A model generated the notes under the pieces. That model ran no database searches. It was not told where the DNA came from and worked only from the letters and a program-made list of their open reading frames with translations. Below are positions 57,129 to 60,100 of a stretch of 64,000 bases of DNA, one piece after another (positions within the stretch are counted from its first letter, which is position 1; the number at the start of each line of letters is the position of its first letter). Made by a program: the position numbers and the translations under genes. Source of the DNA: Trichostrongylus colubriformis (Eukaryota > Nematoda > Chromadorea > Rhabditida > Trichostrongylidae); the NCBI GenBank assembly GCA_963978905.1, contig OZ022257.1, positions 13,042,509 through 13,106,508 on the forward strand, in the 5' to 3' direction.

Positions 57129-60100
57129 ATGGATTGCCTTCGAAAGGGATGGTTCACCGAGTTCTCACCTGACGATTTGGAACGGATGAAAAAGGAAGGT
57201 TAGCTCACTATACAAAAAATCGTATTACGCACAATATAAATGGCCAATTTTAGAATGCACTTGATTTTGCGATATTTTGGTTTGCATGTTTTAGGATCCA
57301 GCGATTCGAATCTATCAAATTCTGATGGAGTGATCATGGGTGGAGCGTGGCCAGGCCAAGCGTTTTCCCTTAAAGTGAAGGAAGTCCTGTTCCATGAGAA
57401 AAGCGACTATCAAGATGTTTTAGTGTTCAAGAGGTAACGGCTTCAGGCTTAGACTTTTTAACGGATTTTTTACAATTTGAAAGTTGCATCTTTAGGCGTA
57501 GCATGTATGAAAGTTGACCTTCCCGGCTCAAAGTTCTCCTCAATATTTATAAAGCTCCAATTCTGTTCTTTGCAGCGAATCCTACGGAAATGTATTGGTG
57601 CTAGATGGCATAATACAAGCCACAGAGCGAGATGAGTTTTCATATCAAGAAATGCTCGCTCATCTGCCGATGTTTGCACATCCAAACCCGAAAAAGGTAT
57701 TATAAGTCAATGTTTCCTTCACAATTCTATAGTTTTTGAGCGGTTGGTTATTTTCTTGAAGTGTATACGACTTTGCAGGTATTAATCATTGGCGGTGGTG
57801 ACGGTGGTATTTTGAGAGAAGTTCTAAAGCATCCTGAAGTCGACCATGTCACCATGTGTGAGATCGATCGTGTAGTAATTGAAGCATCAAAGCGGTATGT
57901 ATGCACTTCTTGCACGATCGATCTAAGTGACTACTTTCTGTGAAGTATCTGTAGGATTTGGTACGCATGAGACGTACCGTGATAGGTGGATTGCCTCTTG
58001 CATCCAGTAACAGGCGATCGCTGCGTGCGCTATTCCTGTCAGCCATTGGCACACAAGAAGTGGTCGTATTTTGTCCAGGAAACCGTCTCAGCGAAAAAAA
58101 ACACAAAATTGCCTCCCAGTAATTTGCGACCAAGAGTGGGAATACTGTAGCTTGCCGTTTGAATCGCAAATTCGGTCGTAATATTTAGACATCCCAGGTA
58201 GACATGAGTATCGGAATATCGTATTGTTTCAAATTTGTGTAAGGACGATGTCCCTTTGAATTAGCATCCATGAGATAATGTACAGCAGCCAACATCAAAA
58301 AAAAATCGGAGATAGTGGGAAATTACGTTTGCAAGGCTCAGCGAGTGATGGTTTCGACTTCAATGATTCTCTGAAATCCTTAGAGAATTATCAGTATGAC
58401 TCCAATATAACCAGCTATTTGCCTTTTCACTTGCTAGTTGTTATAGTGTGGTAGGTGCTAGAAAAGTTGCAGTTTTACGCGAGCGCTAGTCAAAGTATCA
58501 AAATTAGATTGATTTGACATCGCCCTTCCAATAGGTACTGCTACATACACTAAATTGCTTCTACATCTTATTTTATTTTTTATCCATATTTTGCGTTTCA
58601 GGTTTTTACCTAGGATGTCGTGTTGCTTCTCAAATCCCAAACTAAATCTTTACTGTGGAGATGGATTCGAATTTCTCAAGAACCATAAGGTCTTTTTTTC
58701 TTGATCCCGCACCCTCTAGCTCTGGGTGCTCGTTAAGGTCACTTATATGGGCGCACAACAAGCAATGCGGTAGTAGTGATGCATTCATACTCGTCGACGC
58801 GATTGAAATGCTTGCGTTGCCGAGTATGAATGTAGCCCTCACGTCTCGTACAAACCATCTGGAATTCTCACCACCGTATGCTTCTTACACTTGCTTCACG
58901 TTCTATGGCTGTTACAGCCTGCGCTTAATCGCTCAAAAATCTGTAGCTACTTTAGAATGAATTCGACGTGATTATAACCGATTCTTCTGATCCTATTGGA
59001 CCTGCAGAAAACTTATTCGGAAAATCGTACTATGAGCTGCTGAGAGATTCACTGAATGAAAATGGAGTGTTGTCTTCCCAAGGTACGATATTTGTTTTTC
59101 ACTAAGGAAAAGCAATATACACACAGGAGTTATTTTTTTTAAATAATGTCACTATTAAGGTGAGTGTCCATGGTTGGACCTAGCCCTGATTGCTAAGGTC
59201 TGCCATGAATACTGTTCACCAATATTTCCCGTTGTACGATACGCAGTTGGCTCTGTACCCACGTACACCAGTGGATTCATAGGCTACATCGTTTGCAGTA
59301 AATTCAAGGTTCTACCGTACTTTACTCAGATTCATAGGTTTTTACCTCCTATCTATCCCTCCTATCTAGTTCTTGTCAATACTTTTCTTTACCTGTTCAA
59401 CGAGTGTGTTCAGTAGTGGTGATGTTCATTAGTTGGCAGAAGAGTAGCTAGTGATTTGCGTTGCTTGAACGGATAGGGTTATGGGTAGACAGCTTCAGTT
59501 AGATTTTTCTTACCGTCTACTTGGCGGTAGTCCTTCCGTTTTGCATGCATTCTAAGTAAACAGTCTTCTCAAGAAGATCTCGCAGTGCGACCATATCTAG
59601 TGGCAGAATTTTTTCGCATTTTTTCCGTAATTTTTTTTCACAATGTTGCGGCTTGTAGGCTGTTGATAGAACGCGATAGAGCGCTATCTATCTGAATTGG
59701 CTTTCTTTGTTGTAGGTGAAAGTTCGTGGCTACATCTGAGTTTGATAGCTCACATGGTCCGCTTTGCACGTGATTTGTTTGCTAACGTACAGTATGCTCA
59801 GTCAGCTGTCTCTACGTATCCATCTGGCACCATGGGATATCTGATTTGCTCGAAATCGGTGTGTTGTCTAGCAGTGCATGGATTTGCTTTTCTCTCTTCT
59901 TTAGCATGCTTTCAGTTTGGTGCTATTGATCCGTTGAACCGTTGATCCGAGTTCGCGTCTGACATAGTAGTCGCATCATCTAGTAATTTGCATCAAATTG
60001 TGAATTCATTCAAATACACAAGTGGTGAATTTGGCAGAATGTGGAGTATGAAAGTAGGGGTGCTGACAATGAATAGTGTAACAGTAGAGAAAGAACGAAG

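Follow-up and report, generated by a model that had tools for sequence, protein, structure and literature searches.

Mutually exclusive tandem exons are homologous neighbours of equal phase, ancient in origin, that give rise to isoforms differing in a single segment (PMC9741552). That paper describes 12 gene families with such exons common to human, fly, and C. elegans, some of which encode enzymes (AKR1C3, ATE1, GALNT13); spermidine synthase is not among the 12. The C. elegans spermidine synthase gene, spds-1, has been the subject of studies on ageing, fasting, and desiccation that apparently treat it as one product; two spds-1 papers use a single qPCR primer pair, and the word ‘isoform’ does not occur in the main text of the fasting paper. 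An open-access literature search, conducted mostly at the level of titles and the beginnings of abstracts, had, among the items listed, no account of this exon pair in spermidine synthase and no paper on Y46G5A.19, which we take to be the C. elegans name of this gene. Mutually exclusive tandem exons are a well-known class, and spds-1 is new to it as far as this search reaches; the isoform sequences already sit in databases, and what is new may be the recognition of the pattern. We describe here a nematode locus in which, with high confidence, the SPDS-1 exon encoding residues 221 to ~270 has been duplicated in tandem, exactly one copy enters each productive mRNA, and the resulting isoforms are probably both active.

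The DNA analyzed, hereafter ‘the window’, is a 64-kb stretch of the Trichostrongylus colubriformis genome. It harbors, on the forward strand, a spermidine synthase gene orthologous to C. elegans SPDS-1 (positions 57129–60916, a span of 3788 bases) that is built by six constant coding exons followed by two alternative exons, A and B, and two further constant coding exons, with all introns bounded by GT-AG. The coding part of exon 1 (57129–57198) begins with the start codon at 57129, and in the alignment with the C. elegans structure 2b2c it reaches that protein’s residue 1; upstream, a TTTTAG splice-acceptor-like site ending at 57114 on the same strand, noticed by eye, possibly serves trans-splicing. 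Exons 2 (57295–57433), 3 (57576–57696), 4 (57779–57894), and 5 (58602–58689) were placed by splicing of the coding sequence, exon 4 also by its GGGDGG motif of the nucleotide site. Exon 6 (58956–59082) carries the gatekeeper-loop motif DSSDP.GPAE and ends in phase 1, so that both the GGGDGG motif and the gatekeeper loop are encoded by constant exons. Then come exon A (59160–59308, 149 nt), encoding GECPWLDL...SVPTYTSG...CSKFK, and exon B (59716–59858, 143 nt), encoding GESSWLHL...AVSTYPSG...CSKS. Exon C (60718–60840) starts in phase 0, and exon D (60899–60916) contributes the final ALEKK and the stop codon. The original prediction had the exon coordinates, lengths, GT-AG borders, and phases right, and had also correctly quoted the motif pairs VPTYTSG/VSTYPSG and FPVV/FANV.

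Isoform B (residues 1–312) aligns end to end with C. elegans spermidine synthase 2b2c at 534 bits (the two comparisons to 2b2c gave 534 and 508 bits); the orthology extends over nearly the full length of the protein, and exon B corresponds residue by residue to the solved chain. Over its full length, a deposited T. colubriformis protein of type A (P0003) shares 99% identity with isoform A of the window. The speE equivalog profile TIGR00417 (cut-off 249.55) was applied to proxies for the window’s proteins: P0003 scored 361.3, and the A- and B-type proteins of Panagrellus 351.7 and 352.1, the latter for P0030. Spermine synthase (3c6k) belongs to the same superfamily and has a longer N-terminal part. 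It matches with E-values of 6e-17 and 8.5e-19, far weaker at 65 and 71 bits versus 534 and 508 to 2b2c, and at 316 and 314 residues the window’s enzyme was rejected as a spermine synthase.

The coding sequence is open to the stop at 60916 with either alternative exon, comprising 951 nt (316 amino acids) with A and 945 nt (314 amino acids) with B. When A and B are spliced together, translation stops after residue 277, and when both are skipped, after residue 222; mRNAs of either kind would presumably be subject to nonsense-mediated decay. The claim that exactly one exon must be used therefore holds at the canonical sites, but not beyond them: when every GT and AG of the scanned stretches is admitted, 34 donor–acceptor combinations restore an in-frame A-B fusion (e.g., with a donor 11 nt inside exon A). 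The exclusion is ‘obligatory’ only with respect to canonical splice sites.

That the two exons are homologous, as had been proposed, is borne out by a BLOSUM62 local score of 107 between A and B, against a maximum of 46 over 2000 shuffles, with 22 of 48 aligned residues identical. In tblastn searches of the window the two find each other with E-values of 5e-9 and 3e-10, and no further match in the 64 kb is better than E 0.16, which rules out a third exon copy or a second gene copy within the window. Among the identical aligned residues represented by whole codons, 14 of 21 codons differ between A and B, so the duplication is not recent. Exon A retains 44 of 49 residues in Haemonchus placei and 30 of 48 in C. 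elegans, and exon B 42 of 48 and 34 of 48, respectively; at the protein level, A and B are conserved to a similar degree. The pair thus has the adjacency, homology, like length, and equal phase expected of mutually exclusive tandem exons.

Mobile elements are also present in the window. Just downstream of the synthase gene, at 61383–61889, lies a short, internally palindromic element with 34-nt inverted repeats (94% complementary) and TACAGTAGCGGTCAAAAATATA ends, which looks like a small non-autonomous DNA transposon. A 515-amino-acid open frame at 13848–15395 on the reverse strand combines reverse transcriptase and GIY-YIG domains, a combination that we take to denote a Penelope-like retroelement; a second GIY-YIG frame on the forward strand (15300–15872) overlaps its end. 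A DDE_Tnp_1_7 transposase, presumably of piggyBac type, extends across three open frames at 27185–28792 on the reverse strand and is thus either broken or intron-bearing; its 27185–27721 piece falls below the curated cut-off.

The distribution of the two segment types was surveyed in deposited proteins. Of 22 candidates found with the A segment, 20 reached E ≤0.001, as did 12 of 14 found with the B segment; in a profile search 7996 proteins were scored and the best 120 listed, and 127 proteins were fetched in all (cited here by P numbers). Among the matches listed, 19 nematodes, the window included, have both an A-type and a B-type segment; they are distributed over what we take to be clades V, IV, and III. 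In clade V these are the window’s species, H. placei, H. contortus (with A cut short), Angiostrongylus cantonensis, Diploscapter pachys, C. elegans, C. remanei, C. japonica, C. bovis, Heterorhabditis bacteriophora, Mesorhabditis spiculigera, and M. belari (A partial); in clade IV, Strongyloides stercoralis, Panagrellus redivivus, Aphelenchus avenae, Halicephalobus sp., and the source of P0022, placed by likeness; and in clade III, Parascaris univalens and Dracunculus medinensis. The question raised with the original prediction, whether the duplication is absent or disabled in relatives, is thus answered at the protein level by intact A and B in many nematodes. Among the same matches, filariae, Syphacia, Gnathostoma, and Steinernema are represented by A only, and Panagrolaimus, tylenchids, Ascaris, Plectus, and Romanomermis by B-like segments only; these one-type species may reflect losses, an incomplete listing, or the other exon never having been present. 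The intron DNA of relatives was sought by querying bacterial and viral contig collections with the A segment, and no relative was found there.

All eight outgroup animals used have a single segment with PTYP[SC]G, and on the basis of these eight the exon pair looks confined to nematodes. Two octocoral spermidine synthase proteins of ~572 amino acids (P0028, P0042) carry a GECPWLD segment resembling nematode exon A; this likeness seems convergent, as P0028 groups with the outgroups in the segment tree described below. Halicephalobus sp., which has an A+B model (P0023), also has a second, divergent spermidine synthase (P0070) with the segment IESPWIDM...TPTYISG, possibly a paralogue with a segment of its own.

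Open frames, phases, homology, and conservation of A and B can be read directly in the sequences, and the splicing choice itself is seen only indirectly, through the deposited proteins of relatives. Mutually exclusive splicing of one gene predicts pairs of proteins that differ in the segment only, and such pairs are found in three clades. The deposited proteins P0017 and P0030 of Panagrellus redivivus are identical outside the A/B segment, as are P0047 and P0046 of M. spiculigera; P0054 and P0053 of Parascaris univalens are likewise identical outside it, save for six N-terminal residues of one. In these three species the mutually exclusive reading put forward originally finds its counterpart in proteins differing essentially only in the segment. 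A further pair, P0068 and P0056 of M. belari, is also identical outside the segment, with the first half of A replaced by unrelated residues. The borders of difference in the paired proteins fall within ~2 residues of the window’s exon borders, and we take each pair to represent models or transcripts of one gene.

A second group of records consists of 20 short contigs (989 to 2370 bases, labels lgn/jgi) with a clear nematode A or B segment. Given the 3788-base length of the window’s gene, they are probably transcripts, with the qualification that the Strongyloides contig P0055 could be genomic if the gene is compact there. Exon A is joined cleanly to the next exon in four of the 20 (P0005, P0016, P0018, P0063), and 14 contain B (P0027, P0034 to P0041, P0043, P0044, P0048, P0051, P0055). 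Of the remaining two, P0102 has A running into other sequence, and P0022 has A, an apparent intron, and B. The nearest short-contig protein to the window is P0005, which is A-type and 86% identical. Not counted here are P0071, P0072, P0075, P0076, P0083, P0084, and other records (labels lgn, jgi, or ena) of unclear or non-nematode type, each of which has one segment.

These records bear on the possibility that A and B are both included, which would lengthen the enzyme by a tandemly repeated segment. The 366-amino-acid C. elegans model P0006, with A and B in one chain, has just this form, and it is one of 13 nematode proteins among the 127 fetched that join A, sometimes cut, to B; in C. bovis P0013, A is joined to a B shortened at its start, and the cryptic sites of the window could supply the frame. 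(A 14th fused protein, plant P0087, has two equal segments, is unrelated, and was excluded.) However, the type of join varies among species: A is cut short in P0007, P0014, and P0020; extra residues stand between the segments in P0001, P0002, P0004, P0006, P0011, P0021, P0023, and P0058; and an intron is apparently read through in P0009 (C. remanei, 38 residues) and P0022. Such variety is expected of gene predictors where two exons do not fit together in frame, and we therefore read the fused models as prediction artefacts, with less certainty for C. elegans. Moreover, a spliced A-B join occurs in none of the 20 short-contig proteins, and a repeated helix-hairpin would need room outside the core fold. 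Double inclusion is thus quite improbable, and the deposited model P0006 of C. elegans should probably be split into two isoforms.

To date the duplication, a tree was computed over 48 columns for 73 segments, of which two are the window’s and 71 come from 59 selected proteins; 68 of the 127 proteins were left out as near-copies or as partial or distant rows, including P0005, P0008, P0020, P0068, and P0070. The residue at position 227, Asp for A and His for B, served to label the rows, with Setaria assigned by hand; this site is thus not independent evidence, although all retained columns entered the computation of the clades. All 32 A-type rows form one clade with a support of 100/95, which, in a tree built without spermine synthase rows, nests among the nematode spermidine synthase segments. 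The B-type rows are less cohesive: 28 of 33 group together (94/81), and five B-like rows, from Romanomermis, Plectus, Heterodera, Globodera, and Aphelenchoides besseyi, lie outside, near the nematode root. Holding all B-type rows together is not rejected (p 0.28; 0.16 without Romanomermis, and 0.16 when Plectus is removed as well). Forcing the A and B segments of clade V together costs 32.4 log-likelihood units, with a borderline p-AU of 0.056. A recent duplication restricted to strongylids is thus disfavoured by the tree, by the constrained tree (32.4 units, p 0.056), and by the protein pairs of clades III and IV. As the A-type segments form one clade, the duplication would predate the split of the nematode clades, and a single duplication before clades III, IV, and V parted is the simplest account of these sequences, within the real limits of a tree with so few columns.

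What distinguishes A from B was assessed as positions at which the commonest residue reaches at least 70% in A and at least 60% in B. Four positions emerge (A/B, in isoform A numbering): 223 Cys/Ser, 227 Asp/His, 254 Pro/Ser, and 257 Thr/Pro. The commonest outgroup residues there are Cys, His, Pro, and Pro, so that A and B each retain a part of the ancestral motif. In A, PTYP has become PTYT, with Thr257 in 27 of 32 rows; in B it has become STYP, where 24 of 33 rows have Ser254. Two of the four positions flank Tyr256, the residue that the original prediction had described as conserved in both versions and that is indeed present in 65 of 65 nematode rows used. Pro254 is kept in 9 of 33 B rows, ascarids among them, and Parascaris at least has A too. 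Pro257 is found in four A-type rows, three filarial (P0073, P0077, P0079) and P0016, and the filarial P0074, P0081, and P0086, which are outside the tree, also read TYP; no B-type protein for filariae is among the matches listed. If A stands alone in filariae, its return there to the ancestral TYP would suggest, in a few and related rows, that the two exons otherwise divide a task between them.

AlphaFold2 models of the A-type P0003 (mean pLDDT 82.2, pTM 0.84) and the B-type P0030 (mean pLDDT 85.6, pTM 0.87) agree in folding the segment into a helix (228–239) and two strands (245–252 and 260–267, A numbering), connected by a loop that carries the acceptor-site Tyr256. The best solved match of the A model is 2b2c, followed by human spermidine synthase. 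Based on sequence and models, the unit that differs between the exons is the helix together with the strand pair and its Tyr256 loop, with the nucleotide motif and the gatekeeper held constant. The segment Tyr of both exons aligns with the human Tyr of PTYPSG, which we take to be the acceptor-site Tyr241, and we presume it to be equivalent to Plasmodium Tyr264. In the Plasmodium spermidine synthase, putrescine is described as held by Tyr102 and residues of the gatekeeper loop. P. falciparum Tyr264 can stack on ligands of the acceptor site (PMC4356361). The two isoforms are most likely both active aminopropyltransferases that would differ on the acceptor side, in stability, or in regulation, possibly through the residues flanking the Tyr, i.e., Pro254 and Thr257 in A, and Ser and Pro in B. 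B is a working exon, as the C. elegans structure 2b2c has a B-type segment.

A more specific version of this idea is that isoform A uses another acceptor (spermidine, cadaverine, or a dietary or host diamine) or serves another compartment or state, so that one nematode gene would provide two aminopropyltransferases, for which other animals have a gene each. Spermine synthase has reportedly been lost from almost all nematodes (PMC12803844), and Plasmodium, which is without spermine synthase, makes some spermine with its own spermidine synthase, presumably by means of an added cavity (PMC5035006). The nematode loss would fit acceptor retargeting, as does the return of filarial A to TYP. Plain spermine synthesis by isoform A is disfavoured in C. 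elegans, as spermine was not detected there in the data reported (PMC6780408). We consider retargeting possible but unlikely. About as unlikely is a second scenario, in which isoform A is catalytically weak or dead and regulates B within the dimer. Trypanosomatid prozymes would, in our understanding, be the parallel for such a partner, and A does depart from the outgroup His227 and Pro257, both of which B has kept. Nevertheless, all 32 A rows have Glu222, Trp225, and Tyr256, and 31 of them also Gly259, A-type proteins score like B-type ones against the speE equivalog, and the filarial proteins listed are all A-type, so that A may be a working synthase there if B is absent.

A regulatory role may instead lie in the splicing itself. 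If A and B were functionally equal, the pair could serve dosage control via unproductive mRNA, since skipping and double inclusion both reach a stop. Long reads of Litoditis marina are reported to show differential transcript usage of spds-1 at pH 4.33 and 5.33, the isoforms being unnamed there (PMC13405938); this stress-linked usage accords with dosage control and, more generally, is a hint of regulated spds-1 isoforms. However, dosage control leaves unexplained why the residues that set A apart from B have been kept for so long in three clades, and a single poison exon would suffice for it. We regard it as rather improbable.

The introns around the pair contain candidate signals for exon choice. 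The hexamer TGCATG, which we take to be a FOX-type motif, occurs on the forward strand at 59542–59547 in the A-B intron, at 59875–59880, 16 nt past the end of exon B and shortly behind GTGTGTTGT, and at 60443–60448 and 60643–60648 in the B-C intron. These four occurrences within the 1343 nt of the three introns adjoining A and B compare with 0.55 expected from the window’s own rate (P 0.0024, uncorrected, with seven motifs looked at); the other introns of the gene have one, against 0.55 expected. In C. elegans, exclusive exons of egl-15 are reportedly controlled through FOX and SUP-12 sites. UNC-75 reportedly acts on the exclusive exons of C. elegans unc-32 (PMC3585155). Exon choice in spds-1 may conceivably follow tissue or stress through splicing factors, with the TGCATG motifs near B as first candidates. 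RNA pairing as an exclusion device was sought among the inverted repeats of the window, none of which looks like paired selectors for A and B; the best inverted repeat (59971–59989 with 60623–60641) has both arms in the B-C intron, and no known RNA family reached its gathering score in the 64 kb.

By eye, the acceptor (TATTAAG) and donor (GTTCTA) of exon A look weak. Together with the B form of the solved C. elegans protein, this could suggest that A is a decaying or unused duplicate. The acceptor of exon C (ATTCAAG) is similar in kind. Exon A has no disruption, is conserved (44/49 in H. placei, 30/48 in C. elegans), and is the version found in P0003 and in records of transcript size such as P0005, which makes an unused exon A highly improbable.

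In summary, the gene of a core metabolic enzyme has a genuine, ancient, and conserved pair of alternative exons, A and B, and the solved C. elegans structure covers only one of the two versions. The exchange of a segment at the acceptor site arose, by the simplest account, before clades III, IV, and V diverged, which would mean that two versions of the enzyme have long been under selection. The A/B pair probably gives worms two kinds of spermidine synthase by exon choice.
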